Part shown: one piece after another, positions 41 through 15,406 of the stretch
How positions within the stretch are numbered: position 1 is the stretch's first letter
Layout: the number at the start of each line of letters is the position of its first letter
NCBI GenBank assembly: GCA_021604765.1
Contig: BQJP01000027.1
Span: forward strand, 1-35,143
Origin: Thermodesulfobacteriota bacterium
GTDB taxonomy: Bacteria > Desulfobacterota_D > UBA1144 > Nemesobacterales > UBA2774
Length of the DNA: 35,143 nucleotides
Direction of reading: 5' to 3'
Made by a program: the position numbers and the translations under genes
Notes under the pieces: model-generated
What the model was told of the DNA's origin: nothing
The model's database searches: none
Seen by the model: only the letters and a program-made list of their open reading frames with translations

Positions 41-2143
41 ATGGTACTGAGGCGTTCTCTTCTTTTATTGATTGCACTTCTTCTTCCAGCAATTGCCTTT
101 GCGACTACGAAACATATTGTCAAAAAAGGGGACAATCTTTATGATTTATCTAGGAAGTATGGAGTATCGGTAGAAGATCTTAAAACATTTAACAAGCTTA
201 GTAATATTGATTTAGGAATTGGTGATGAACTACTTATTCCGGTTTCAAACAAAGATGGCAATAATAACTATGTAGTAAAAAGTGGAGACACAATTAGTCA
301 AATCGCCGAGAAATTCGGCATTAAAACCAAAGATTTAAAATCAGCAAATAAACTAAAAAATGATAATTTACGAATTGGTCAATCCCTTTACATTCCTCTC
401 CAAAAGAATGCAGCACCAGAAGTAGTTGTTTCTGAAAAAACAATTGAAATAGAATCAATTGAAAAAGAGACAATATCTTCTCCTGAAGTTAAAAAAGAAG
501 AAATATCTAATGTATATATTGTCAAAAAAGGCGATACTCTAGGAGAAATTGCCGAGAAACACAATGTTAAAACCAGCAATCTAAAAAAAGCCAACAATCT
601 TAAAAACCACAATTTGCAAATTGGGCAAAAGCTGGCCATACCTGGTCAAGAAGCTATACCCACTGAAGTATCTGCAACCAAGGAACTAGCAAAACCTTCC
701 AAATCTGATTTACCAACTAATAAAAAAAATACAAGTGAGTCAGCAACTGTATCGAATGTCTATGTAATCAAGAAAGGCGATACAATATATGACTTATCCA
801 ATAAGTTTAAAATTTCTAAAGATAATCTTAAGAAATGGAACAACCTGAGTAATAACAATTTAAATATTGGGAAAAAACTTTATCTAACACCTAATAAAGA
901 AGCGACAATTGCAGCAAAGAATAAATCCAAGCCAAAGTACACTGAAACTTATAAAGTTAAAGGTGGCGATACGTTAGGCCATATAGCTGAAAAATTCGAC
1001 ACATCTGTTTCTAATCTAAAAGCTGCAAACGACCTTAATAACAACAATTTATCTGTAGGAAAAGTATTAAAGGTTCCTACCATAGCTAAGCATAACTCTA
1101 AAACAGCTAAAAAGTCTGACCCAAAACACTCCAGAACAACCACAACAAAATATACTGTCAAAAAGGGTGACACACTTGGTGGAATAGCTAACCGCCATAA
1201 AGTGACGGTTGCTAAAATTAAAGAGTCAAGCTCTCTAAAGAACAACAATATAAAAGTTGGGCAGGTTCTTCTTATTCCCGGCAATAAAGTCGCGCCGGCA
1301 AAAAAGCTCTCAGGCTCGAAATATACTGTGGTCAGCGGAGACACTCTTGGGGGAATAGGGGACAAATTTGATGTTTCAGTAAAAGAATTAAAGAACGCAA
1401 ATAATTTGAGAAGCAACAACATTAGAGTTGGCATGAAGTTAGTAGTTCCAGGCTATACCAAAGTAGCCAGCACCCCGACTCAGAAAACTCAAAAATCATC
1501 CAAAACGATTAATTCAAAATATATTGTCAAGAAAGGCGATACTTTAGGACTAATTGCTCAAGGACATGGACTATCTATAAGCTCAATTAAAAGCGTGAAC
1601 AATATAAAAGGCAACAATATCAGAACAGGGCAGATCATTGTTCTTCCTGGGGTTAAGCCTAACTATAGCGAACAGCAAAACAAGACAGCAAGCAGATCAC
1701 AAAGCCCATCAAATTCTCACCCAAGCAAACTAAAAGCAAAAGAAAGCATAATTACTGTTGCAAAGCAATATCTTGGCGCTCCATATAAGTTTGGGGGCTA
1801 TTCCTTTAAAACCGGGATAGATTGTTCTGGTTATGTAAAGAAAATTTTCAGCAAATTCAATGTTGAACTACCAAGAACCGCAAGGGACATCTATTATAAC
1901 GCTGGAATCAGAGTTTCCAAAAGCCAGCTTCAGGTCGGCGATCTAGTGTTTTTTAGAACCTACGCAAGTTATCCTTCGCATGTCGGCATTTATATGGGAA
2001 ACAACTTATTTATACATGCTTCTTCAGGAGCTCGTAAGGTAGCAATAACTCGTCTAGATAAGAAGTACTACACAAAGAGATATATTGGGGCAAAGAGAAT
2101 ACAGCTTTCAGCTATATTCGAAAAAGAATACTCCCAAAGATAA
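41..2143 (+). CDS. LysM-repeat NlpC/P60 cell-wall hydrolase
   Basis: Likely secreted or periplasmic peptidoglycan endopeptidase of 700 residues. The start is ATG 41, seven bases after a perfect AGGAGG (28-33); a GTG at 8 in the same frame lacks this support. Residues 1-21 form a signal peptide (RR, a Leu-rich core, then AFA). Eight LysM modules follow (residues about 24-535), each with a KKGDT-like start and an N-N-L/I-x-x-G end, joined by Ser/Thr/Lys-rich linkers. The C-terminal NlpC/P60 domain (about 570-690) shows catalytic Cys595 in DCSGY, His647 in SHVGIY and a third polar residue in the IHASS stretch. LysM domains bind glycan chains and NlpC/P60 domains cut peptide stems; the family assignment is secure, while the exact bond cut is inferred. 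Eight LysM copies are many for this architecture. The promoter lies outside the window. Confidence 0.93.
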   Translation: MVLRRSLLLLIALLLPAIAFATTKHIVKKGDNLYDLSRKYGVSVEDLKTFNKLSNIDLGIGDELLIPVSNKDGNNNYVVKSGDTISQIAEKFGIKTKDLKSANKLKNDNLRIGQSLYIPLQKNAAPEVVVSEKTIEIESIEKETISSPEVKKEEISNVYIVKKGDTLGEIAEKHNVKTSNLKKANNLKNHNLQIGQKLAIPGQEAIPTEVSATKELAKPSKSDLPTNKKNTSESATVSNVYVIKKGDTIYDLSNKFKISKDNLKKWNNLSNNNLNIGKKLYLTPNKEATIAAKNKSKPKYTETYKVKGGDTLGHIAEKFDTSVSNLKAANDLNNNNLSVGKVLKVPTIAKHNSKTAKKSDPKHSRTTTTKYTVKKGDTLGGIANRHKVTVAKIKESSSLKNNNIKVGQVLLIPGNKVAPAKKLSGSKYTVVSGDTLGGIGDKFDVSVKELKNANNLRSNNIRVGMKLVVPGYTKVASTPTQKTQKSSKTINSKYIVKKGDTLGLIAQGHGLSISSIKSVNNIKGNNIRTGQIIVLPGVKPNYSEQQNKTASRSQSPSNSHPSKLKAKESIITVAKQYLGAPYKFGGYSFKTGIDCSGYVKKIFSKFNVELPRTARDIYYNAGIRVSKSQLQVGDLVFFRTYASYPSHVGIYMGNNLFIHASSGARKVAITRLDKKYYTKRYIGAKRIQLSAIFEKEYSQR
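107..1650 (+). repeat. Eight tandem LysM-coding repeats
   Basis: Eight copies of a roughly 130-base unit, each coding for a LysM module, are separated by variable linkers of low complexity. The copies are diverged at DNA level, and modules 5 to 8 look most alike (GDTLG core). They make long spurious open frames on the opposite strand. Confidence 0.85.
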
Positions 2144-2229
2144 GATCATTATCTCTAGTAACACAAACCATTTCGCTTTAAAAATACCACCCTTCGTTAG
2201 AGACAATTCTGGTATTATAAAATCCTTCA

Positions 2230-2257
2230 TTGAAAGATGTAGTGCAATGTTTATATT
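2230..2257 (+). promoter_or_regulatory. Predicted sigma-70 promoter of xerC
   Basis: The -35 box TTGAAA (2230-2235) and the -10 box TATATT (2252-2257) are separated by 16 bases. Transcription would start about 2264, only some 5 bases before the xerC ATG at 2269, giving a nearly leaderless message. The sequence before this ATG has only a weak purine stretch (AAAGAGAAG). Confidence 0.55.
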
Positions 2258-2268
2258 AAAGAGAAGCT

Positions 2269-3165
2269 ATGGATAAATACCTAGATAGTTTTGAAGAATT
2301 TCTAAGCTCCGAAAGAAACTACTCAAAACACACCCTGAAGGCCTATATAACAGATCTAAAAGAATTTGGTCTAGTTCTTAAGGATATGGGTCTAATTAAT
2401 TCAGAAAATGGCGACATAGACTTTGCTAATTTAGATGAAACACCAATAAGGGCATTCATAAGCAAGTTATATGCAAAGAATAAAAAGGTTTCTATATCAA
2501 GGAAAATTGCTTCAATCAGGACATTTTTTGAGTTTTTGATTCGTAGGGGAGATATGAAATCAAACTATGCAAAGTTAGTTCCTACACCAAAAGGAGAAAA
2601 AAGGCTTCCAACATTTTTAACAGTAGATGAAGTCATAAAACTTGTTGAAGCTCCGGGTTCAGATACTGCTTATGAATCAAGAGATAGAGCAATTTTAGAA
2701 CTCCTTTACTCTTGTGGATTAAGAGTAAGTGAACTCGTAGGCATTAACTTGCAGGACCTAGATTTAAAATCTATGAGTGTTAAGGTTCTTGGCAAGGGCA
2801 ATAAAGAAAGGCTGGTCCCACTTGGCTCTAAGGCTTCTTCTGCTATCACAACGTACTTAGAACAACGCTTGGATCTGAAACCTAAAGAAGATTATCTCTT
2901 TGTAAATTCCAGGGGAGGCAGACTGACCACAAGAAGCATAGACAGGATAATAAAAAAATATGCAGTAATAGCTGGAATACCCAAGAATATCAGCCCTCAT
3001 GTCCTAAGACACACCTTTGCAACACACCTGCTGGGTGGTGGAGCAGATTTAAGGGCTATTCAGGAAATGCTGGGACATCAGAGTTTATCTACAACACAGA
3101 GATATACTCACACATCAGTAGAAAAATTAATGGAGATTTACGATAAAACACACCCCCGGGCATAA
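2269..3165 (+). CDS. xerC: Tyrosine recombinase XerC/XerD family
   Basis: Site-specific recombinase of 298 residues, the usual Xer length, which resolves chromosome dimers at dif together with a partner. The N-terminal SAM-like core-binding domain (about 1-90) is followed by the catalytic domain. The full catalytic set is visible: Arg152 (LRVSEL), Lys176 (LGKGNKE), His244 and Arg247 ([12 protein letters not shown]), His270 (LGHQS) and the nucleophile Tyr279 (TQRYTH). It is followed 11 bases later by hslV, the classical xerC-hslV-hslU order, which favours the name XerC over XerD. The two paralogues cannot be told apart with certainty from one sequence. The start lies next to a predicted promoter and has no strong Shine-Dalgarno site. 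Confidence 0.92.
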
Positions 3166-3176
3166 AAGGAAACAAA

Positions 3177-3722
3177 ATGGAAAACTTTCATGGAACGACA
3201 ATAGTCTGTGTTAAGAAGAACAATCAAGTTGCTATGGCAGGAGATGGACAGGTAACACTTGGACACACCGCTATAAAGCACACGGCAAAAAAAGTAAGAA
3301 AGATTTATGGCGATAAAGTCATGGTAGGTTTTGCGGGAGCAACTGCCGACGCTATGACTCTGTTTGACAAGTTTGAGGCAAAATTGGAAGAGTTTAGGGG
3401 CAACTTAAGCAGAGCCTCTGTAGAGCTTGCCAGAGACTGGAGAACTGATAGGGTACTCAGAAGGCTTGAGGCACTACTTGCAGTAGCAGACAGTGAATCC
3501 ATGTTCCTCATATCCGGAAGCGGTGACGTGCTTGAGCCAGACGACAATGTCATTGCAATAGGATCAGGAGGCTCATTTGCCCAGGCTGCAGCTAAGGCGC
3601 TGTCTAAATATTCTGATTTAAGCGCTGAGGATGTAGTAAAAGAATCCATGAAAATTGCATCTGAGATTTGCATATATACAAATGAAAATACAACGGTCGA
3701 GGTACTTAACATAAATGAGTAA
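3177..3722 (+). CDS. hslV: ATP-dependent protease subunit HslV
   Basis: Proteolytic subunit of the HslVU (ClpQY) protease, a cytoplasmic double hexamer with a proteasome-beta fold. The product has 181 residues, the normal length. The sequence begins MENFHG followed by TTIVCVKK, so a six-residue propeptide is probably removed to expose Thr7 as the N-terminal nucleophile. The motifs GDGQVTLG and the glycine-rich [16 protein letters not shown] typical of the family are present. AAGGAAA lies seven bases before the ATG. Its last eight bases overlap the start of hslU (ATGAGTAA), so the two subunits are probably translationally coupled. Confidence 0.97.
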
Positions 3723-5052
3723 TGACATATTTTTCACACCAAGGGAAATAGTATCAGAACTAGATAGATATATAATAGGTCAGAACAAAGCCAAGAGAGC
3801 AGTTTCAATCGCGCTCAGAAACCGTTGGAGACGCCAACGCGTATCACCTGATCTAAAAGATGAAATCGCTCCAAAGAACATTCTAATGATTGGTCCTACA
3901 GGAGTTGGAAAAACAGAGATAGCAAGAAGGCTCGCCAAGCTTGCTCAGGCCCCATTTCTAAAAGTCGAAGCCTCAAAATTCACGGAGGTCGGTTACGTAG
4001 GAAGGGACGTCGAATCCATGATTAGGGATTTAACTGACATTGCCATAAAAATGGTAACTGATGAGGAGAAAACCTCAGTAAGAGTTAAAGCAGAAGAGCT
4101 TGCTGAGGAAAGAATGCTGGATTTGTTACTACCCAAACCAAGCACCAATCCCGAAGAACCAGAAGCGGATTCCAGTAGTGATACTAGACAGAAACTTAGA
4201 AAACTTTTAAGAGAAGGAAAGCTTGATGAGCGTTATGTTGATATTGAAGTAACATCTAAGAACCTACCTATACAGGTATTTTCACCTTCAGGAATGGATG
4301 AAATGGATATGAACATTTCGGACATGATTGGAAACCTGTTCCCTAAAAAAACCAAACAAAGAAAAGTAAATGTTCCCGAAGCAATGGAAATCCTTATTCA
4401 AGAAGAAGCCCAGAAGTTAGTGGACATGGATAATGTAATAAAACTTGCAATAGACAGAGTTGAACAGTCTGGAATCATATTCATAGATGAGATAGACAAG
4501 GTAGCCGGAAGAGAAAGCTCTGCCGGACCTGATGTATCTAGAGAGGGTGTTCAGAGAGATCTGCTGCCAATTATCGAAGGCTGCACAGTGAATACTAAAC
4601 ATGGCATGGTTAAAACAGACCATATTCTCTTTGTAGGTGCAGGCGCTTTTCATGTTTCAAAGCCCTCAGATTTAATACCGGAGCTTCAGGGAAGATTTCC
4701 AATTAGAGTTGAGCTTGAGCCTCTGACAAAAGATGATTTTGTAAATATCTTAACCAAGCCCAAGAATGCTCTAATAAAGCAATATATTGAGCTTCTTAAC
4801 ACCGAGGATATAGAGCTTGTTTTCGGTGATGATGCAATTACTGAAATTGCCGAGACAGCTCAGAATGTTAATGAATCGACTGAGAACATCGGCGCTAGAA
4901 GACTCCATACTATAATGGAGAGAATGCTGGACGACATCTCATTTGAGGCCCCGGATATGCAAGAAGAAAAGATTATTATAGATGCTAATTACGTCAAAGA
5001 AAAAATTGCTGATATTGTGAAAGACAGAGATTTGAGCAGATACATTCTCTAA
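3715..5052 (+). CDS. hslU: ATP-dependent protease ATPase subunit HslU
   Basis: AAA+ unfoldase that feeds substrates to HslV; 445 residues, as expected. Visible features are the N-terminal [16 protein letters not shown] segment, Walker A GPTGVGKT (60-67), the GYVG pore loop, a charged I-domain (about 110-245), Walker [10 protein letters not shown], sensor and arginine-finger sequence [12 protein letters not shown], and sensor 2 GARRLH. The C-terminus DLSRYIL matches the tail that inserts into HslV and activates it. The gene overlaps hslV by eight bases and is followed 17 bases later by a small ABM-fold gene, so all probably lie on one transcript with xerC. Confidence 0.97.
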
Positions 5053-5069
5053 GCAAAGGTGAGCCTGAT

Positions 5070-5363
5070 ATGTCTGTTTTTGCGATTACCAGATGTGTTT
5101 ATGACGATGACATAAAACAGGAGCTTCTCGACATAAAGAAGCTGTCTCTCAGAATCCTGGAGAAACAAAGAGGATTTGTCGGGGTTAAACAGTTCATCTG
5201 CGAAGAGATGAACGAGATGGTCTCAGTTATAGAATGGGAGACAAAAAAAGACCACGAAGCTTCAATGGAGAGCCTGGATTGGGACCCTGTTAACCCAACC
5301 TGGATGGCACTGACTAAAGGCGGTAAAATCACTTTTGAAGTAAATCTTTTCGAAGCACATTAG
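5070..5363 (+). CDS. Small ABM-like (dimeric alpha-beta barrel) protein
   Basis: A 97-residue protein that reads as a single ferredoxin-like domain of the antibiotic-biosynthesis-monooxygenase (ABM) or related dimeric alpha-beta barrel type: a strand with FAITRCV, a helix, the KQRGFVGVKQFI turn, a strand with MVSVIEWET and a second helix, ending in ITFEVNLF. No catalytic residue can be assigned. AAGGTGA lies eight bases before the ATG. It is 17 bases downstream of hslU on the same strand and ends only five bases before the convergent gene at 5369. Fold assignment is by pattern only; substrate and function are unknown. Confidence 0.6.
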   Translation: MSVFAITRCVYDDDIKQELLDIKKLSLRILEKQRGFVGVKQFICEEMNEMVSVIEWETKKDHEASMESLDWDPVNPTWMALTKGGKITFEVNLFEAH

Positions 5364-5368
5364 ATTTA

Positions 5369-6091
5369 CTATACTTTACTTTGCCATATTGCCTTACCTA
5401 CAAAAAACGGCCCCAAACTTTCTAAATGTTGAGAGGTTTGCTTAGTCTTACGCATTGCCTGAATTAGTGCTGATAGAGGGAACAACTCTTTGCCTAAAAC
5501 TCCAATCACAAAATCGTTATCATTTTTATCCAGTCCATGACAGGCAAGCCGAATATCTCGTCCTAGCCCGGCATGACCAAACTTAAAACCTAATTTGCCG
5601 TGCTCTCCTACTACTGCGCGCTGCTCATCTGATGTGAGTGTTTCAAAACTTTTTTCTCTCATGAGCGGATACCAAATCGCCCATGGCCACTCAGGGTCTA
5701 GTACTTTAGCTCGAGGAGCGGTCAAAAGCGTTTTCTCTAGATCCGGTTCATAGCCAAGCGCATATGTCCTCCCTAGCATGGTCATCTCAGGTTTTTGAGT
5801 GAGCTCCATAAAAGATGAGCTGTTTAAGAATTCTCTGAGTTCAGTAACAAAAAAATCTGGATCCTGACTTAGACTTAACAAACCAATACCATATGGATCA
5901 TTTATATCAGCATATAGCACAATATCCATATTAGCATTTTCAAGCTCGGTTATTATTTCATTTGTATTCCAACAGTCCCCAAAAGCTATAAACTGAAAGA
6001 ATAATCTCTTGTCCAAACTTGTTGCTGTGCCGTCTTTTGCACGGCCTTTTTCACTTAGATCTAATTTAGCTTCATTATTATCAGTAGACAT
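5369..6091 (-). CDS. Chlorite dismutase/HemQ-family protein
   Basis: A 240-residue protein with the tandem ferredoxin-like layout of the chlorite dismutase (Cld) family, which includes heme-binding Cld and HemQ (coproheme decarboxylase). Seen in the sequence: FFQFIAFGD near residue 31, the conserved WYPLM at 140-144, an LTSDEQR helix, EHGKLG with His164 (the position of the HemQ proximal heme ligand), Arg181, the HGLDKNDNDFVIG segment at 185, and the PLSALIQAMRKTKQT helix. A second histidine (His173) could also be the ligand. The first 25 residues are charged and nonconserved. AAGGAG lies nine bases before the ATG. It stands alone, divergent from the arg operon. Whether it decarboxylates coproheme, degrades chlorite or does neither cannot be decided; no other heme genes are nearby. 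Confidence 0.7.
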   Translation of the reverse strand: MSTDNNEAKLDLSEKGRAKDGTATSLDKRLFFQFIAFGDCWNTNEIITELENANMDIVLYADINDPYGIGLLSLSQDPDFFVTELREFLNSSSFMELTQKPEMTMLGRTYALGYEPDLEKTLLTAPRAKVLDPEWPWAIWYPLMREKSFETLTSDEQRAVVGEHGKLGFKFGHAGLGRDIRLACHGLDKNDNDFVIGVLGKELFPLSALIQAMRKTKQTSQHLESLGPFFVGKAIWQSKV

Positions 6092-6114
6092 TAAAAGAAT
6101 CTCCTTAGATAGAA

Positions 6115-6143
6115 AATATAACAGGATAAATTCTCATTGGCGA
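6115..6143 (-). promoter_or_regulatory. Predicted promoter of the Cld/HemQ-family gene
   Basis: Read on the minus strand: -35 TCGCCA (6138-6143), a 17-base spacer and an extended -10 TGT-TATATT (TATATT at 6115-6120). The start site would be near 6108, giving a 17-base leader containing the AAGGAG at 6101-6106. The -35 box overlaps the inverted repeat at 6139-6154. Confidence 0.5.
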
Positions 6144-6154
6144 TAAATATTGCC
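6139..6154. promoter_or_regulatory. Operator-like inverted repeat
   Basis: GGCGATA-AA-TATTGCC is a 7+2+7 inverted repeat with one mismatched pair. It overlaps the -35 box of the Cld/HemQ-family gene, where a bound repressor would block transcription. The regulator is unknown. Confidence 0.35.
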
Positions 6155-6219
6155 GTTTCTTAGCATGTAATGCAGAAGACTACTATCTTTATTGAATAAT
6201 GGGTTTTAGAAATAACTTG

Positions 6220-6248
6220 TTGGCAGAGTGAGTTATATCTTTTATAAT
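6220..6248 (+). promoter_or_regulatory. Predicted strong promoter of the arg operon
   Basis: TTGGCA (6220-6225), a 17-base spacer and a perfect TATAAT (6243-6248) predict transcription from about 6255. This puts the upstream in-frame GTG at 6250 at or before the transcript start, so translation must begin at ATG 6280. Confidence 0.8.
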
Positions 6249-6279
6249 AGTGAGCTTAATTTTAGGATGGAAATATGAC

Positions 6280-7161
6280 ATGGACAAATTTATACAAAAA
6301 GCACAGACACTCGTTGAAGCGCTGCCCTACATAAAAGAGTTTTACGGACAGACTATAGTCGTAAAATATGGGGGAAGTGTTGGAGATGAAGATCTTCACA
6401 ATTTCGCCCGCGATATTGTTCTTATGAAATATGTAGGCATGCATCCTGTAGTTGTGCACGGCGGTGGTCCGCAAATTGGAGAGCACCTTAAGAAGCTTGG
6501 AATAGAAACAGAATTCATTGCAGGCTTGCGAGTGACTGATGAGAGGACAATGGAAGTCGCCGAGATGGTACTGGTTGGAAAAATTAACCAGAAGATTATT
6601 GAGGCGATCCACTCTATGGGCGGCAAAGCCGTAGGAACATCCGGCAAAGAAGGAAAGATGATTCTAGCCAAGAAGCTTGACCTTAAAAAATTTGCTAAGG
6701 AAAACGGGCTTAAAGTTCCTAAAGGCGCAGACCTAGGAATGGTTGGGGAAGTTGATAGTGTTAATCCTGATCTTGTAAAAGTGTTAGAGAACTCAGGTTT
6801 CATACCGGTTATTGCTCCAGTGGGCTTTGATGATGAGGGCAGGACATTCAACATTAATGCTGATCATGTTGCGGGGGAAATTGCCGGAGCCCTTAATGCT
6901 GCAAAGCTTGTTCTACTAACAAATGTTGCTGGGATCATGGATAACAAGAAAAATCTAATCTCGACACTTACCGAAACTCAAGCGAAAAAATTAATCAAGA
7001 AAGAAATTATATCAAGCGGAATGATACCCAAAGTTATGTGCGCGATTGACGCCCTTCACGACGGAGTACAAAAAGTGCACATAATCGACGGCACCATTGA
7101 ACATGCTTTAATTCTGGAAATCTTCACCGACTCAGGAATTGGAACGGAGATTCTACTTTGA
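6280..7161 (+). CDS. argB: N-acetylglutamate kinase ArgB
   Basis: Phosphorylates N-acetyl-L-glutamate, the second step of the acetylated arginine pathway, in the cytoplasm. The start is ATG 6280: AGGATGG (6264-6270) lies nine bases upstream and the promoter predicts transcription from about 6255. The protein has 293 residues. Motifs: VKYGGS (28-33), VVHGGGPQIG (58-67), RVTD, the NINADHVAGEIAGAL segment and SSGMIPKV. An N-terminal helix of about 20 residues (KAQTLVEALPYI) precedes the first strand. In this family such an extension marks hexameric, arginine-inhibited enzymes, so feedback control at this step is likely. The stop overlaps the argD start by four bases. Confidence 0.97.
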   Translation: MDKFIQKAQTLVEALPYIKEFYGQTIVVKYGGSVGDEDLHNFARDIVLMKYVGMHPVVVHGGGPQIGEHLKKLGIETEFIAGLRVTDERTMEVAEMVLVGKINQKIIEAIHSMGGKAVGTSGKEGKMILAKKLDLKKFAKENGLKVPKGADLGMVGEVDSVNPDLVKVLENSGFIPVIAPVGFDDEGRTFNINADHVAGEIAGALNAAKLVLLTNVAGIMDNKKNLISTLTETQAKKLIKKEIISSGMIPKVMCAIDALHDGVQKVHIIDGTIEHALILEIFTDSGIGTEILL

Positions 7162-8357
7162 GCACCCAAGAAACAATTTCCAAAACTAAGAATTATGTAA
7201 TGAACACCTATGGCCGCTACCCTATTGCGATGGTCAAGGGAAAAGGTTCATGGGTATGGGACGCTGAGGGGAAAAAATATCTCGATTTTGTAACAGGTAT
7301 TGCTGTAAACAACTTGGGTCACTGTCATCCCAATATTACAAAAGCCATAAGGGAACAATCCAAGATCCTTGTTCAGCCATGCAATTTATTTCACATCGAT
7401 CAGCAGGGAGAATTTGCAAAACTCCTTGTAGAGAACTCATTTGCGGACAAGGTTTTCTTTTGTAATAGTGGCACAGAGGCAAATGAGGGCGCGATAAAAC
7501 TTGCCAGAGCATATGGCTCTAAGAATGGTAAATATAAAATAGTTCATGCTAAAGATTCATTTCACGGTAGAACCATGGGATCGCTAAGCGCTACGAGCAA
7601 AAATTATCAAGCCGGATTCAAGCCCCTTGTTCCGGGGTTTAAACCAATAGCATATGGGAAAATGGAAGCCTTAGAAAAAGCACTGCAGGATGAAAAAGTT
7701 TGCGCTGTAATACTAGAGCCGATTCAAGGTGAAAACGGTGTAATATTGCCACCTGACAACTATCTTAAGAAAGCTAGGGCACTTTGCACAAAGAAAAAAG
7801 CACTATTAATACTTGATGAAGTACAAGTTGGTATGGGAAGAACCGGGAAACTTTTTGCCTATGAACATTATGGAATCAAACCAGACATCATGACTCTATC
7901 TAAAGCTTTGGGTGGAGGAATACCATGTGGCGCGTTTTTAACCACTAATAAAGTTGCGAAATACCTAAGCCCTGGAATGCACGGCACAACTCTTGGCGGT
8001 AATCCACTTGCTATGAGTTCTGGAAAAGCAGTGCTTGATACCATTATGGACGAAGGTCTCCTGGATCAAACTACCAGCTCTGGAACTTATTTTTTAGAGA
8101 GCCTACAGAGATTAAAAGAAAAATACAAAAAGGAAATCAAAGATGTCAGGGCTAAGGGCCTTATTCTCGGAATGGAATTTAAAAACAAGGAAACAGCAAA
8201 AGCAGTAGTGGAAAAATGTATCCAAGAAGGGCTACTAACAATCCTGACAATACAAAAGGTTATGAGGATATTACCTCCTCTTAACGTTAAGCAAAAAGAG
8301 ATAGCCCGGGCTCTAAAAATTATTGATAAAGCACTACTAGAGGTGACAAATGCCTAG
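7158..8357 (+). CDS. argD: Acetylornithine aminotransferase ArgD
   Basis: PLP-dependent class III aminotransferase of 399 residues that converts N-acetylglutamate semialdehyde to N-acetylornithine. Seen: [16 protein letters not shown] (102-117), [19 protein letters not shown] with the cofactor-contacting Asp, the Schiff-base lysine Lys249 in LSKALGGG, and [10 protein letters not shown]. The chosen start is TTG 7158, which overlaps the argB stop (TTGA) and has CGGAG eight bases upstream. An ATG at 7200 (residue 15) would also leave the domain intact. The gene is translationally coupled on both sides, overlapping argF by eight bases. Confidence 0.96.
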
Positions 8358-9261
8358 ACATTTTCTAAGCATATTCGATTTATCAGCAAAAGAATTTAAA
8401 ACCCTTTTCAAAAGAGCTGCTGAGCTCAAGAAAGGTAAAAAAGCCGGTAAGAATCAGGAAGTTCTTAAGAGAAAGTCTATAGGAATGATATTTGAAAAGC
8501 TTTCTACAAGGACAAGAGTATCTTTTGAAGTTGCAATAAACGACTTGGGTGCCAGTTGTCTATATATGAATCCAAGTGACTTACAGCTTGGACGAGGAGA
8601 ATCAATTGCTGACACCGCCAAAATATTGTCCTCATATCTGGATGGCATCATTATTAGAACCTATGAGCAACATAGAATTGAAGAGTTTGCAGAAAACTCA
8701 ACAGTCCCAGTAATAAACGCACTTACTGATCTGGGTCACCCAACACAGATAGCCGCAGATCTCTTCACAATTGTTGAAACTGGAAAGAAACTAAATAAGA
8801 TCAAATTAGCATACGTTGGAGATGGCAATAACATCGTCAACTCTTTTATAGGAGCGGCTTCTATATTAGGTTTTCATCTTTCAATAGCTACACCAAAAGG
8901 ATACGAACCAGATAGTGAGTTCCTGAAGAAAGCTAAAGAAAGCGGGAAAGGATTTATAGAAATAGTTAATGACCCTAAGAATGCCGTAAAAAATGCAGAC
9001 GTTCTATATACAGACGTATGGGTGAGTATGGGACAAGAGAAAGAAACCAAGAAGAAGCAAAAAATATTTAAACCATTTCAAATAAATGAGGATCTCCTTT
9101 CACTGGCAAATCCTGATGCTATAGTAATGCATTGCCTCCCAGCTCATAAGGGTGAAGAAATCACTGAAGAGATATTAGAGGGCTCAAGTTCAGTAGTATA
9201 TGAGCAAGCTGAAAACAAACTACATATGGGAAAAGCTATACTGGAAATGTTCCTTAAATAA
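8350..9261 (+). CDS. argF: Ornithine carbamoyltransferase ArgF
   Basis: Carbamoylates ornithine to citrulline in arginine synthesis. The protein has 303 residues. The carbamoyl-phosphate motif STRTR (52-56), HPTQ, and the ornithine-side motif [11 protein letters not shown] near residue 259 identify OTCase rather than aspartate transcarbamoylase. GAGGTGA lies three bases before the ATG, and the start overlaps the argD stop by eight bases (ATGCCTAG). It is the last gene of argB-argD-argF; argG and argH are not in the window. No hairpin terminator is visible after it. Confidence 0.97.
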
Positions 9262-9372: not shown

Positions 9373-9403
9373 TGTAAACATTAGCCCTTGGGGAGTTTTG
9401 CAC

Positions 9404-10522
9404 ATGAGACGAGGAGAAAAAGTTTATTATGTGAAGGACTTTATACAGACTGTCCCTCTTCCTTCGCCTAAGAAGATATTTAGCGAGCTTGATAAACTAG
9501 GTTATAAGGGACAGACGGACGCTAGACGCGCTGTATCACTTGCTGCCTATAGGCATGTAAAGAGATTAAAACAGATGCACTCTAACAATATCCCCAGAAC
9601 CGAGTTGATCCCAAGGCCTAATTCTATACTCATGGGTCCTACGGGTTGCGGCAAGACATATCTCATTGAACTACTTTTCGGCGAAATATTTAAACTACCC
9701 TTTGTCATAATCGACATGACCAAGTTCACTGAATCGGGTTATGTGGGGGATGATGTAGTAAATATATTGGTTCAGTTGGTTTATGCTGCAAATGAAAGCA
9801 TTGATATTGCTGAGTGCGGAATAATAGTTTTGGATGAATTTGATAAAATTGCCGGATCATACAGTAGCGCTAGATTTGCAGGGCAAGGCACCACAAAGGA
9901 TGTTTCAGGTTTTGGTGTACAAAGAGAGCTTCTTAAAATACTGGAAGGCACAGATGTACAGATACCATTGGATTTTGGGTTCTCTAGTAGGGGACCAAGA
10001 GCGCTTATATCCACGCGTGACATCTCCTTTTTTGCAGTAGGGGCATTTTCCGGCATAAAGAATTTATTCGGAAGCAATGAAGCAGGATTTCTCCAAGATA
10101 TTGATAAGAACAATATCCAAGATGATACAATAGCTTACAACATGAGTCAGGAAGAAGCTGACGATATTACAAAATTTCAGCTCTTTGGATTTTTACCTGA
10201 GCTTATTGCTAGATTTAACAGAATTGTTCCATTTTCGCCGCTTACCAAAGAAACACTACAGGAAATTATTCATCTTAAAATAATGAACTATCAAACTGAA
10301 TTTGAAGAGGAAGGGTTTCAGTTACAATTAGACCCTGTAATAGTGAGCCACATCATTGATGAAGCCAGAAGGAGACAGACTGGTGCTAGAGGGCTTGATG
10401 TAATCATATCAAAGCACCTTGAAGAAGTAGCTTTTGATTTATTCGGTAGAGGTGAGGAAGGCGAAATTACTCTTACTGTTAAGTCGGGCGAAGTTACTCA
10501 CACAGTTAAGAGACGTGCATGA
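9404..10522 (+). CDS. ClpX-like AAA+ ATPase lacking a zinc-binding domain
   Basis: A 372-residue AAA+ protein of the ClpX/HslU branch. The start is ATG 9404, eight bases after GGGGAG. Seen: a short N-terminal segment with no Cys4 zinc-binding domain, Walker A GPTGCGKT (78-85), pore loop GYVG (112-115), Walker B IIVLDEFDK (140-148), a GVQRELLKILEGT helix like ClpX, arginine finger Arg270 in PELIARF and sensor 2 GARG (327-330). The place where ClpX carries its ClpP-docking IGF loop has AGF (227-229), a weak match. It differs clearly from the true HslU at 3715. It may unfold proteins alone or with an unidentified peptidase, or be a remodelling factor. The stop overlaps the rimO start (ATGA), so the two are co-translated. 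No peptidase gene is next to it. Confidence 0.8.
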   Translation: MRRGEKVYYVKDFIQTVPLPSPKKIFSELDKLGYKGQTDARRAVSLAAYRHVKRLKQMHSNNIPRTELIPRPNSILMGPTGCGKTYLIELLFGEIFKLPFVIIDMTKFTESGYVGDDVVNILVQLVYAANESIDIAECGIIVLDEFDKIAGSYSSARFAGQGTTKDVSGFGVQRELLKILEGTDVQIPLDFGFSSRGPRALISTRDISFFAVGAFSGIKNLFGSNEAGFLQDIDKNNIQDDTIAYNMSQEEADDITKFQLFGFLPELIARFNRIVPFSPLTKETLQEIIHLKIMNYQTEFEEEGFQLQLDPVIVSHIIDEARRRQTGARGLDVIISKHLEEVAFDLFGRGEEGEITLTVKSGEVTHTVKRRA

Positions 10523-11823
10523 AAATATATATTGAGAGTTTGGGTTGCTCCAAGAACCTTGTAGATAGCGAGCTGATACTGGGTTCACTTACAAAATCCG
10601 GCCATCAAATATCATCCGAAGAAGAAGCTGAGGTAATTATTGTAAATACCTGTGGCTTTATAGGCGATGCCAAAAAAGAATCTCTTGACGCAATTCTTGA
10701 TCTTTCTGAGTACAAAAAAAGCGGTAGCTGCAAAAAATTAATAGTTACAGGCTGCATGGTTGAAAGATATTCAGAAGAGCTTAGCAAAGAAATACCTGAA
10801 GTCGACGCTTTTTGGGGAACTGGAAATATCTTCAAAATTGGAGATGCTCTAGAACAAGAAAAATCTGAGAAAATTCTTCACTACCCACCAGGCACGATTT
10901 ACGACCCCGATTCACCCCGCGTTATGCTTACACCTACTCACTCAGCATTTGTAAAAGTGTCTGAGGGTTGTTCCAGAACCTGTACTTTTTGCATAATTCC
11001 CAAGATGAGAGGACTTATGAAAAGCAGGACCATAGATTCTATAGTAGGTGAGATTGAGAGCCTTGCCACTCAAGGTGTAGGTGAAATAAACTTAATCGCG
11101 CAAGACATGACCAGTTATGGAAGAGATATAGGAACCAACCTTGAAACAATGCTTAGAGAAGCTTCCAAAGTAGAGGGAATAGACTGGATCAGAATTCATT
11201 ACTGGTATCCGTGGGGAATTTCAGATTCACTACTTGATCTCGTTGCCGAGGAAAACAACATTCTGCCATATGTAGATATGCCGCTTCAGCATATTAATGA
11301 TAGGATGCTTAAATTGATGGACAGAAAGACCACCAGCAAGCGCATTAGGGATATTATTAAGCAATTAAGAGAAGGTCTTGATCACGTTGTACTAAGAACA
11401 ACCTTTATTGTCGGATTCCCCGGAGAAACTGATGAGGAATTCGAAGAGCTTCTGGATTTTGTAGAAGAAACCAAGTTTGATAGAGCGGGAGCTTTTAAAT
11501 ACTCCCAGGAAGAAGGTACACCTGCTGGGATAATGGGTGAGCAAGTTCCCGAAGAAGTAAAAGAAGAACGCTTCGAAAGACTAATGGAAGCTCAATCTGA
11601 AGTCTCTTATGAGAAAAACAAATCGCTGATTGGAACAGTTCATCAAGGGTTTGTAGAAAGCGTGGAAGATAAAAATTATGTGGCACGCATCTCTTCTCAG
11701 GCTCCTGAGGTAGATGGGTATACGTTTATTAAAAGAGATGAAGAACTTATACTTGGAGAACTAGTAGACATAAGAATCACGGACGCTGATATTTATGATC
11801 TACACGGTGAAATTGCAGATTAA
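10519..11823 (+). CDS. rimO: Ribosomal protein uS12 methylthiotransferase RimO
   Basis: Radical SAM enzyme that adds a methylthio group to the beta carbon of a conserved Asp in ribosomal protein S12. It has 434 residues. The N-terminal MTTase domain has three cluster cysteines (Cys10 in SLGCSKNLVDSE, Cys45, Cys79). The radical SAM cluster motif is Cys151-x3-Cys155-x2-Cys158 (SEGCSRTCTFCIIP), and a TRAM domain lies at the C-terminus (about 370-434). SLGCSKN and the WYPWG stretch favour RimO over the tRNA enzyme MiaB. It overlaps the preceding ClpX-like gene by four bases and ends 60 bases before the convergent cofH. Confidence 0.95.
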   Translation: MKIYIESLGCSKNLVDSELILGSLTKSGHQISSEEEAEVIIVNTCGFIGDAKKESLDAILDLSEYKKSGSCKKLIVTGCMVERYSEELSKEIPEVDAFWGTGNIFKIGDALEQEKSEKILHYPPGTIYDPDSPRVMLTPTHSAFVKVSEGCSRTCTFCIIPKMRGLMKSRTIDSIVGEIESLATQGVGEINLIAQDMTSYGRDIGTNLETMLREASKVEGIDWIRIHYWYPWGISDSLLDLVAEENNILPYVDMPLQHINDRMLKLMDRKTTSKRIRDIIKQLREGLDHVVLRTTFIVGFPGETDEEFEELLDFVEETKFDRAGAFKYSQEEGTPAGIMGEQVPEEVKEERFERLMEAQSEVSYEKNKSLIGTVHQGFVESVEDKNYVARISSQAPEVDGYTFIKRDEELILGELVDIRITDADIYDLHGEIAD

Positions 11824-11883: not shown

Positions 11884-13086
11884 CTAGTCAGTCCCGTTTG
11901 CGTCAAACATCTGACGGATTCCGTATGTTGTATTTCTTTCAGCTGGGATTCTTCCAATCTCTCTTGTGAGACGGCGAAATTCCTCGGGTGGGAAATACTG
12001 CCCGTAGCTTGCTCCTGCAGAACGGGATATCTGCTCTTCCATAAGTGTGCCGCCAAAATCGTTAGCTCCAGCAGTAAGTGAGAATTGTGCGAACTCAGGG
12101 CCCTGCTTTACCCAGGAAACTTGGATATTATTTATCCATCCCCTAAGCATAAGTCTTGAAACAGCATACATTTTTAGCTGATCTAAATCAGTGGGGCCTT
12201 CAGCAACTTTTCCCTTTGAGTGTTTAAACAGTCTGGTGTTCCATGGGATAAACCTTAGTGGAACAAACTCTGTAAATCCTCCGGTCTCTTTTTGAATATC
12301 ACGAAGGATACCAATGTGTATTGCCCAGTGCCTGGGCTCATCAACATGACCGTACATTATTGTTGAAGTTGTGTGCATACCGGAAAGATGTGCCTTTTTG
12401 ACAATTCTTATCCATGCCTCAGTAGGCATTTTACGAGGAGCAATAATTTTTCTAACTTCTTCTACAAGTATCTCGGCTGCAGTGCCCGGGAAGGTGTTAT
12501 GTCCTACATCTTTTAGTCTTTCTATGAACTCTTCTTCTGAAATTCCAAGTGATTCCGCTCCATAGAATATTTCAAATGGTGAAAACGCATGCGTATGCAT
12601 CTCGGGTACAGCTTTTTTAACTGCTTTAATCAATTCGATATAAAAATTACCATCTATATCAGGATGCATACCACCCTGCATACAAACCTCGGTAGCACCT
12701 ATGTCCCAAGCCTCTTTTACTCTGTCCGCAATTTCATCCATACTCAGAAAATATGCTCTTTCATCCCCTTCAGGAGCCATGAAGTTACAGAAACCGCAGT
12801 AAGTATTACAAATGTTAGTAAAATTAATGTTCCTGTTTACAACGTAAGTAATAACATCGCCAACATCCTGTTTTCGAATCTCATCAGCTGCAATTGCAAG
12901 AGCTGAGATCTCATCAAGATCTTCTAAACCAAATAAAGCCTCACCTTCTTCAACTGACACTTCATCACCAACAAGAGCTTTATTAACAATTTGCCCTGTT
13001 GTACCATTCACTTTTGATAAGAGACTATCAAGGCCCATTGCCCTATTCTCTTCAATTCTATATATTGCTTCTTTAATGTCAGCCAT
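11884..13086 (-). CDS. cofH: Fo synthase subunit 2, CofH
   Basis: Radical SAM enzyme that joins tyrosine-derived 4-hydroxybenzyl to 5-amino-6-ribitylaminouracil, the first step of deazaflavin (Fo) synthesis. It has 400 residues. The cluster motif is Cys93-x3-Cys97-x2-Cys100 (CNTYCGFC), followed by CMQGGMHP, the FSPFEI stretch, and NDFGGTLMEE near the C-terminus, all typical of CofH. The related menaquinone enzymes MqnC/MqnE were considered, but adjacent cofG and nearby cofD favour CofH. The ATG has GAGGTGA three bases upstream and overlaps the cofG stop by eight bases (ATGGCTGA). Confidence 0.93.
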   Translation of the reverse strand: MADIKEAIYRIEENRAMGLDSLLSKVNGTTGQIVNKALVGDEVSVEEGEALFGLEDLDEISALAIAADEIRKQDVGDVITYVVNRNINFTNICNTYCGFCNFMAPEGDERAYFLSMDEIADRVKEAWDIGATEVCMQGGMHPDIDGNFYIELIKAVKKAVPEMHTHAFSPFEIFYGAESLGISEEEFIERLKDVGHNTFPGTAAEILVEEVRKIIAPRKMPTEAWIRIVKKAHLSGMHTTSTIMYGHVDEPRHWAIHIGILRDIQKETGGFTEFVPLRFIPWNTRLFKHSKGKVAEGPTDLDQLKMYAVSRLMLRGWINNIQVSWVKQGPEFAQFSLTAGANDFGGTLMEEQISRSAGASYGQYFPPEEFRRLTREIGRIPAERNTTYGIRQMFDANGTD

Positions 13087-14323
13087 TTGTCACCTCTTCA
13101 AGTGGTACGTAGCCGTCTTTATCTACAAAGTTAACGACTCGTGTAAGTACATCTTTTTCAATAAACTCATTATCAATAAACTCAGGATATACAGGCAATC
13201 TTTCTCTCAATGTGAATCCGAGATCCTCTACCATATCCTGCATTATTTCAAGCTTTGGCCATGGAGCCTCAGGGTTTACATAATCAATTGTTACTGGAGA
13301 CACCCCGCCTAAATCGTTTATCCCAGCATGAATAAACATAGGATATGTCTCAGGATTTAAATTCGGTGGAATCTGAAGATTCATCCCTTCACCAAAGACA
13401 AGTCTTGAGATAGCCACCAATTTTAACATATCAACAACACTCGGTGGCGGATACTTCTCCATCATTATCCCAGGCTTAGGGCTAAAATTTTGTATTATTA
13501 GTTCTTGCAGATGCCCGTAATCATCGCTTAGCTTTTTGAGAGCAAGCAGTGAGTCAATCCTTTCTTCCCAGGTCTCTCCTATCCCTACTAGTATTCCCGA
13601 GGTCCAGGGAATTCTGTGCTCTCCAGCCAGCTCCATTGTGTTCATTCTCAGTTTTGGCACTTTATCAGGACATCCATGGTGCGCCTGCCCCTTTTTAAGC
13701 AACCTTGGACTAATATTTTCTAACATCAGCCCCATGCTAGGGTTGGATTGCTTAAATGCAAGTAATTCCTCACTTGTAGCGAGACCAAGATTGGTATGTG
13801 GGAAGATGTTTTCTTTAAGTCCTGCCTCTCCCATAGCTATCAAATAATCAGCAGTAGTTTCATAACCTAGTTTCTGAAGGGCTTCTTTATATACTGGGTA
13901 TTTTAATTCAGGTTTATCCCCTGTAACAAATAGTAGTTCGGTGCAGCCTAATTCAGCGCCTTTCTTTGCCAAATCCACCACTTCATCAGGACTCATAAAA
14001 AGAGCCCCCTCGCCAGGTTCGTATTTAAATGTGCAATAACCGCATCTGTTCCGGCATATTTGAGTTAGCGGGACAAATACATTCTTAGAATAGGTTAGTA
14101 TCTTACCCTTGCCAGAATCTCTTAATTTAGATGCTGTTAAAAGTAAGTAGGGAATTTCGTCTTTTTCTATATTAACTAGATATAGCGCCTCGTCTCGGTC
14201 TATGACTTCTCCAGACTCTGCTTTATTCAAAATTGCAGACAGTCTTTTTGAAGGACCATTCAACAACGATTCGCATTCTAGCGTGCCAAGCACATTTTCC
14301 CAATCTTTATCAATTAAAGCCAT
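13079..14323 (-). CDS. cofG: Fo synthase subunit 1, CofG
   Basis: Radical SAM enzyme that closes the deazaflavin ring of Fo, using the CofH product. It has 414 residues, with the cluster motif Cys90-x3-Cys94-x2-Cys97 (CRNRCGYCTF) and family signatures VTGDKPE, LENISPRL, IIQNFSPKPG and NDLGGVSPVT. CofG and CofH are separate genes here, as in archaea and cyanobacteria, not fused as the actinobacterial FbiC. There is no clear Shine-Dalgarno site before this ATG. A perfect GGTTA-A-TAACC palindrome lies at 14334-14344 in the leader. It is transcribed from its own predicted promoter at 14406-14435 or by read-through from cofD. Confidence 0.94.
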   Translation of the reverse strand: MALIDKDWENVLGTLECESLLNGPSKRLSAILNKAESGEVIDRDEALYLVNIEKDEIPYLLLTASKLRDSGKGKILTYSKNVFVPLTQICRNRCGYCTFKYEPGEGALFMSPDEVVDLAKKGAELGCTELLFVTGDKPELKYPVYKEALQKLGYETTADYLIAMGEAGLKENIFPHTNLGLATSEELLAFKQSNPSMGLMLENISPRLLKKGQAHHGCPDKVPKLRMNTMELAGEHRIPWTSGILVGIGETWEERIDSLLALKKLSDDYGHLQELIIQNFSPKPGIMMEKYPPPSVVDMLKLVAISRLVFGEGMNLQIPPNLNPETYPMFIHAGINDLGGVSPVTIDYVNPEAPWPKLEIMQDMVEDLGFTLRERLPVYPEFIDNEFIEKDVLTRVVNFVDKDGYVPLEEVTNG

Positions 14324-14405
14324 ATTAATTTTTGGTTAATAACCCCAGTAAATTAGAACAAATTAGATATGCAAATTATTCAATTCTCTAATTTGACTTC
14401 CCCCT

Positions 14406-14435
14406 ATATTCGCACAAAGGGCATAGTCTTGTCAA
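14406..14435 (-). promoter_or_regulatory. Predicted promoter of cofG-cofH
   Basis: On the minus strand there is a perfect -35 TTGACA (14430-14435), an 18-base spacer and an extended -10 TGC-GAATAT (GAATAT at 14406-14411). The leader would be about 75 bases. A small palindrome, GCATA-ATTAG-TATGC (14436-14450), abuts the -35 box and could be an operator. Confidence 0.5.
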
Positions 14436-14479
14436 GCATAATTAGTATGCAGTATATTGGGAGTTATTCAAATAAATTG

Positions 14480-15406
14480 TTAGATCAATTCAAGTACGGA
14501 AGAAGCTAATATTGAAGCCTTTTCTTTATCGGACATTACTGTATCAACAACCAAGGTCTTTAAACCTAGATCGACTATCGCCTGATTTTCGTGTGCATCT
14601 TCAAGATCGATAACCATTGTATCCAGGAACTCAGAGTAAAGTCTCGCTATTTGAGCCGACGAGACCTCAAGACCCAAACCCCTCATAAGCCTGTCTGCAG
14701 GACCTTTAAGCGGCACTCCGCCAACAAGAGGACTAATAGCAATGACTTGAGCTTTAGTCTTTTTAAGCGCGTCCCTAATTCCTTTAACTTGAAGTATAGG
14801 GCCAATGCTAATAATTGGATTACTTGGACAAACTATTATGGCTCGAGCATTTTCGATTGAATCAACAACGCCAGGGGCCGCACTAGCCTGATCTATATCT
14901 CGAACTGTAACTCGGCAAACCTCTGGCTTCATTTTCTTTTTTACTAAATACTCCTGGAAATGCATTTCTCCTTCATTAGTCTGAATCCAGGTCTCGACGT
15001 CATGATCTGTCATAGGGAGAACACTTATATTATCAGCTAAGCCAAAAGCCTTAGCTATCCTTGAAGCTATTTGTGTAGCTGAAAAGCCTTTGCTTTTTAA
15101 ATGAGTTCGGTATATATGTGTTGCAATATCTTGGTCACCAATATTAAACCAAGTTTCTAAACCGAATCTCTTCAGAGAATTTAAAAAATTAAATGTATCG
15201 CCTTCCAAACCCCACCCCTTTTTCCTATCTACAACACCTGACAGACGATAAATTATTGTATCAACATCAGGGGATATATTTAATCCCCCTAGCTTTATAT
15301 CATCACCTGTATTAACAATGACGTTTAATTGCTCATTTCCAATTACGTTTGAAAGGCCTTCTAAGAATTTAGCAGCCCCTACTCCGCCGCCAAGCGCAGT
15401 TAACAT
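14480..15406 (-). CDS. cofD: 2-phospho-L-lactate transferase family, CofD
   Basis: Transfers the phospholactyl (or phosphoenolpyruvyl/phosphoglyceryl) group from its guanylyl-activated donor to Fo, giving F420-0 or its dehydro form. It has 308 residues, the normal length. The N-terminal ALGGGVGAAKF loop, VNTGDD near residue 35, SPDVDTIIY, GDQDIATH and the VCPSNPIISIGPI segment are characteristic of CofD/FbiA. AAGGA lies nine bases before the ATG, inside a small inverted repeat (AGGAA-AAA-TTCCT) that could mask it. It is upstream of cofG-cofH with a 156-base gap. The donor used cannot be read from the sequence. Confidence 0.95.
   Translation of the reverse strand: MLTALGGGVGAAKFLEGLSNVIGNEQLNVIVNTGDDIKLGGLNISPDVDTIIYRLSGVVDRKKGWGLEGDTFNFLNSLKRFGLETWFNIGDQDIATHIYRTHLKSKGFSATQIASRIAKAFGLADNISVLPMTDHDVETWIQTNEGEMHFQEYLVKKKMKPEVCRVTVRDIDQASAAPGVVDSIENARAIIVCPSNPIISIGPILQVKGIRDALKKTKAQVIAISPLVGGVPLKGPADRLMRGLGLEVSSAQIARLYSEFLDTMVIDLEDAHENQAIVDLGLKTLVVDTVMSDKEKASILASSVLELI

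Follow-up and report, generated by a model that had tools for sequence, protein, structure and literature searches.

A zinc-less ClpX paralogue encoded upstream of rimO in Candidatus Dadabacteria belongs to a separate clade of the ClpX family

Introduction

ClpXP is among the best-studied protein-degrading machines. Residues I268, F270 and V274 of ClpX pack into ClpP, and in E. coli even the I268L variant is severely defective in ClpP binding, while changes in the length of the loop lower the affinity (PMC7112951). Clp enzymes that are independent of ClpP (ClpB, ClpIb) do not possess the docking tripeptide (PMC10149685). More than one ClpX is found in M. xanthus, for which three are counted; of these, ClpX3 can be deleted, and normal growth at 36 C needs it (PMC11423568).

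Here we analyse a ClpX-like gene, which we name clpXL, on a 35,143-nucleotide stretch of DNA (the window) from the genome of a Candidatus Dadabacteria member (3.42 Mb in 173 contigs). Its product is a true ClpX paralogue from a deep, separate and previously unnamed clade of the ClpX family. "Unnamed" rests here on NCBIfam, which holds no curated family for the clade, and on searches of the open-licence literature, in which we found no paper on the clade and none on a ClpX paralogue in Dadabacteria.

Results

The following features of the window were considered:

9404..10522, plus strand: clpXL (name coined here), a zinc-less ClpX-type AAA+ unfoldase of 372 aa, ATG start
9635..9658, plus strand: Walker A motif GPTGCGKT, ClpXL residues 78-85
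9737..9748, plus strand: pore-1 loop GYVG, ClpXL residues 112-115
10082..10090, plus strand: AGF, ClpXL residues 227-229 (counted from the ATG), the counterpart of the ClpP-docking tripeptide IGF of ClpX
10519..11823, plus strand: rimO, ribosomal protein S12 methylthiotransferase (NCBIfam TIGR01125, 501.7 bits against a cut-off of 356.95)
3177..5052, plus strand: hslV-hslU, a separate unfoldase-peptidase pair, listed as context and outside the clpXL system

The ATG start of clpXL at 9404 is backed by the conserved MRRGEKVYYVKDFIQ N-terminus of its orthologues; the mechanical ORF has an alternative start at a TTG at 9398. The ATG of rimO sits in the stop codon of clpXL, within GCATGA, which confirms the ATGA overlap described in the initial annotation. 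Convergent with rimO, the minus strand at 11884-15406 carries cofH/cofG/cofD-like genes (F420 cofactor synthesis) that are conserved in the same family. The names fmt, gltB, tyrS, cofG/H/D and those of the arg genes were read off translations and do not come from family searches.

The initial annotation had described a complete ClpX/HslU motor without the N-terminal Cys4 zinc-binding domain, and both observations hold. Walker A is invariant in the family except at C82, where two distant members have S, and the intact motor core further comprises the GYVG pore-1 loop, Walker B (VLDEFDK), the DVSG pore-2 region, the Arg finger in LPELIARF and sensor 2 (TGARGL). The Cys4 domain is absent from the window protein and from every ClpXL member. 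The RKH substrate loop is missing as well: where the genome's own ClpX has GGRKHPQQEF, the alignment shows FGFSSRGPR in ClpXL. Compared with ClpX, ClpXL has one extra residue after the Walker A helix, and in Dadabacteria its docking loop is shorter by four residues.

ClpXL is 34-36% identical to the ClpX of its own genome and 33-38% identical to ClpX generally. Pfam recognises AAA_2 and ClpB_D2-small in it. The best NCBIfam matches are the ClpX models NF003745 and TIGR00382, both far under the curated thresholds (236.6 and 205.1 bits where 359 and 370.75 are required), and the hslU score is also below its cut-off (97.9 against 362.45 bits). An AlphaFold model with a mean pLDDT of 80.7 best matches the ClpX chains of solved ClpXP complexes; the docking loop is flexible in this model (residues 222-243, pLDDT < 50).

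Phylogenetic trees placed the ClpXL clade, with support of 100/100 and a stem of 2.7 changes per site, outside zinc ClpX, the sampled viral ClpX, the ClpX3-like proteins, which form their own clade (100/99), and HslU. The branching order of ClpXL, ClpX3 and ClpX at the deepest splits is not resolved (81/19). The protein is neither the cell's ClpX nor HslU, and the earlier suggestion of a ClpX paralogue is borne out. The genome does contain a normal clpX-clpP: on contig C1, clpP, a zinc-bearing clpX and a Lon-sized, lon-like AAA gene (819-residue frame) stand in a row. Genome-wide, a single ClpP and a single ClpX zinc domain (zf-C4_ClpX) are present, the latter in the clpX of C1, in addition to ClpA/ClpB-sized ORFs and HslUV.

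Three other identities or partners were considered and rejected. HslV, already dismissed as a partner in the initial annotation, adjoins its own HslU; ClpXL lies outside the HslU clade, possesses no I-domain and ends in VKRRA without an HslU-type tail. That ClpXL is the myxobacterial ClpX3 is ruled out by the tree and by the occurrence of both in the same genomes. A phage or defence origin was also rejected since, judged by similarity level, no clade member is present on viral contigs or in phage or plasmid records; viral relatives are at most 36% identical, and those sampled cluster with the zinc ClpX proteins in our trees. A PADLOC search returned only weak generic AAA matches and no strong match, and the PHROGs matches were to families with no stated ClpXL-like role.

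Orthologues of clpXL (72-92% identity) were found in 23 further Dadabacteria genomes, which belong to three families of the order (the G012 copy is a fragment), and were not found in the other families of the class. Among these orthologues dN/dS is 0.02-0.08, about 0.03, where dS can be estimated, and clpXL is therefore functional and under strong purifying selection. A wider sample of 387 genomes revealed a clean score gap between clade members, which score 361 bits or more, and the remaining ClpX proteins, none of which exceeds 237 bits, with eight genomes outside Dadabacteria falling in the clade. Carriers beyond Dadabacteria belong to WOR-3, Lentisphaerota, Myxococcota (including Anaeromyxobacter) and several unnamed families. 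In one family with large genomes (f36), probably Myxococcaceae judging from genome size and gene content, 15 of 39 genomes possess clpXL. Four ClpX-type genes each are found in G085, G406, G412, G423, G400, G426 and G404: two for zinc ClpX (62-67% identity), one ClpX3-like (42-45%) and one for ClpXL (34-36%). All 13 carriers tested (11 outside Dadabacteria, plus G022 and G028) encode a zinc ClpX together with one or more ClpP proteins.

Other clpXL architectures were also observed. An Anaeromyxobacter locus (L058) contains two tandem clpXL paralogues, at 4658-5983 and 5980-7038, with a four-base overlap. At locus L228 (G086, contig C35), a distant ClpXL homologue (4562-7126, minus strand) is fused to an FHIPEP domain, the soluble cytoplasmic domain of FlhA/SctV. 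The next gene (1645-4443, minus strand) combines an FlhB C-terminal domain, another FHIPEP domain and DUF6745, and a TPR gene adjoins. Export-gate domains are here joined to an unfoldase; the comparison set for this fusion consists of three genomes, one of them a carrier.

In line with the pairing seen in the window, rimO is directly downstream of clpXL in 19 of the 21 Dadabacteria carriers that can be assessed; in three more carriers the contig breaks off at this point. The genes upstream (argF, gltB, tyrS) and downstream (cofH, fmt) of this conserved pair change. Neither of the two outcomes named in the initial annotation as speaking against it, a lone clpX of canonical type or a rimO pairing that relatives do not share, was observed. 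Relatives without clpXL show the order rimO-fmt, which is the older arrangement. In G022 and G028, two sister lineages (SH-aLRT 99), clpXL is directly followed by fmt, and a genome-wide search gave no rimO match at E <= 1e-90. Their clpXL genes differ mainly at synonymous positions (pN 0.048; pS 0.82, a saturated value), and the C-terminal KRRA of ClpXL is kept though the rimO overlap is gone. Since clpXL is still selected in these lineages after the loss of rimO, ClpXL is useful without RimO and its function does not depend on it.

The two genes do not strictly co-occur in the other direction either, as G017 (only 74% complete), G021, G025 and G029 possess an ordinary rimO and no clpXL. Outside Dadabacteria clpXL is not beside rimO; it stands alone or has unrelated neighbours, with one case next to rsgA. 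In this case (L226; G160, contig C94), represented by one genome of its class, clpXL and an rsgA-type gene abut or overlap (6176-7321 and 7311-8612). RsgA is a GTPase of 30S maturation. The idea of a ribosome- or translation-linked unfoldase draws on the conserved Dadabacterial pair, but is weakened by the selection on clpXL without rimO in G022 and G028, by the four genomes with rimO only and by the missing pairing elsewhere.

Comparison of RimO between carriers and non-carriers showed no carrier-specific insert. In two genomes (loci L051 and L052), short TTCGACAAGCTCA-type repeats lie in the start region of rimO just past the end of clpXL (about 7123-7200) and lengthen the N-terminus of RimO.

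We also determined how the docking tripeptide varies. The initial annotation had reported that IGF is replaced by AGF; AGF is indeed present at residues 227-229, but it is not a family trait. Gly-Phe (G228-F229) is invariant in all 35 ClpXL members, in a loop that is otherwise hypervariable, with 2-3 bits of entropy at most other positions. Conversely, the first position of the tripeptide varies (V in 14 members, L in 8, M in 6, A in 4, I in the rest). Ala is found only in the window protein and in three further members from the same genus; the other 31 members have V, L, M or I. Position 233, which matches V274 of ClpX, is mostly L, I or V. Judging from the alignment, AGF in place of IGF probably reflects mostly drift at one position inside one genus. 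ClpP docking by ClpXL is more likely to have been kept than lost, because a loop that no longer docks ClpP should not retain exactly Gly-Phe. In the window genus, A227 and the shorter loop may weaken docking, or may mean that docking is weak or absent; docking by the protein of this species is not assured, since I268L and loop length affect binding in E. coli.

A second ClpP or another peptidase beside clpXL was considered and rejected, as none occurs in any neighbourhood of any lineage and the window genome has one ClpP. Together with the invariant Gly-Phe, this speaks against the different peptidase that had been suggested at first.

Discussion

On balance, we consider it somewhat probable that ClpXL is a second ClpX-type unfoldase that serves the housekeeping ClpP with clients of its own. 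ClpXL would form a hexameric ring, thread clients through its GYVG pore loops and hand them to the housekeeping ClpP, on which it would dock via the shortened hydrophobic-Gly-Phe loop. The client set would be distinct from that of ClpX because ClpXL has neither the zinc domain, linked to adaptors, nor the RKH loop, linked to ssrA-type tags. In Dadabacteria, clpXL would have come to sit upstream of rimO, translationally coupled to it. The physical interaction with ClpP is a prediction from sequence, and Gly-Phe could have been retained for another reason.

We regard it as unlikely that ClpXL works as a chaperone devoted to S12 modification or to 30S maturation, remodelling RimO, S12 or the 30S subunit by partial unfolding without degradation. 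The retention of the ATGA-coupled pair in 19 of 21 Dadabacteria while its flanks change, as well as the position of clpXL against rsgA in one other class, is consistent with such a role. YcaO was once proposed as a chaperone-like accessory factor of E. coli RimO (PMC3347575), and ClpX is able to activate an enzyme by partial unfolding (PMC7077987). However, clpXL is strongly selected in G022 and G028, which have no rimO, and four genomes manage an ordinary rimO without clpXL. Beyond Dadabacteria, clpXL mostly lacks a ribosomal neighbour, and with about eight contexts the single rsgA neighbour may be due to chance.

It is likewise improbable that ClpXL unfolds or remodels clients of its own independently of ClpP and without relation to rimO, its Gly-Phe loop being a relic or serving ring assembly. 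This would fit the short loop and A227 of the window genus, which in E. coli terms are harmful to ClpP binding, as well as the solitary position of clpXL, without a peptidase, in most lineages and the fusion of one distant member to a soluble FlhA-type domain. Conversely, a relic would not hold Gly-Phe invariant over several phyla in a freely varying loop, and ClpP is present in every carrier checked.

Little credence is given to the idea that ClpXL uses ATP to remodel the 30S subunit, S12 or RimO, and elsewhere acts near RsgA; if this were true, S12 methylthiolation in Dadabacteria would be an energy-dependent, unfoldase-assisted step. Finally, ClpXL is recognisably ClpX-like by profile and fold, but it can hardly be the cell's own ClpX after loss of the zinc domain, or a decaying duplicate, given the zinc ClpX by clpP and the lon-like gene on contig C1, the depth and separateness of the clade, a dN/dS of about 0.03 and a motor in which every residue is intact.

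ClpXL thus represents a deep ClpX-type clade that is present in several phyla and coexists with ordinary ClpX. Docking on ClpP, as the second-unfoldase reading predicts, would mean that in many bacteria one protease is served by a second front end for selecting clients; without docking, the invariant Gly-Phe loop must do something else. The two candidate functions are separated by the natural genomes that carry clpXL but lack rimO.

Comparison with known Clp systems

ClpXL resembles ClpX in its fold, its motor motifs, the GYVG pore-1 loop, the DVSG pore-2 region and the Gly-Phe of the docking loop. It differs in its identity of 33-38%, the absence of Cys4 and RKH, the shorter loop, the scores below the cut-offs and its own clade. 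HslU belongs to the same AAA+ superfamily branch and shares the GYVG pore; however, HslU has no Gly-Phe loop, whereas ClpXL has neither the I-domain nor the HslU-type C-terminus and falls in another clade. Mitochondrial ClpX acting on ALAS provides a model for the activation of an enzyme via partial unfolding (PMC7077987). An enzyme client of ClpXL is hypothetical.

ClpI of Actinomycetota is a precedent for an extra class of Clp unfoldases with and without the ClpP-docking tripeptide (PMC10149685), although it has two AAA+ modules and an M-domain and ClpXL has one module. Like ClpXL, M. xanthus ClpX3 (MXAN_2743) is an extra ClpX without zinc domain and RKH loop that exists beside zinc ClpX (PMC11423568). 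The ClpX3-like proteins of f36 (42-45% identical to zinc ClpX), which we liken to MXAN_2743 by identity and described features only, form a clade of their own, and the same genomes hold ClpXL (34-36%) as a fourth ClpX-type gene. The M. xanthus work sets an example of an additional ClpX that lacks the zinc domain and has a stress phenotype.
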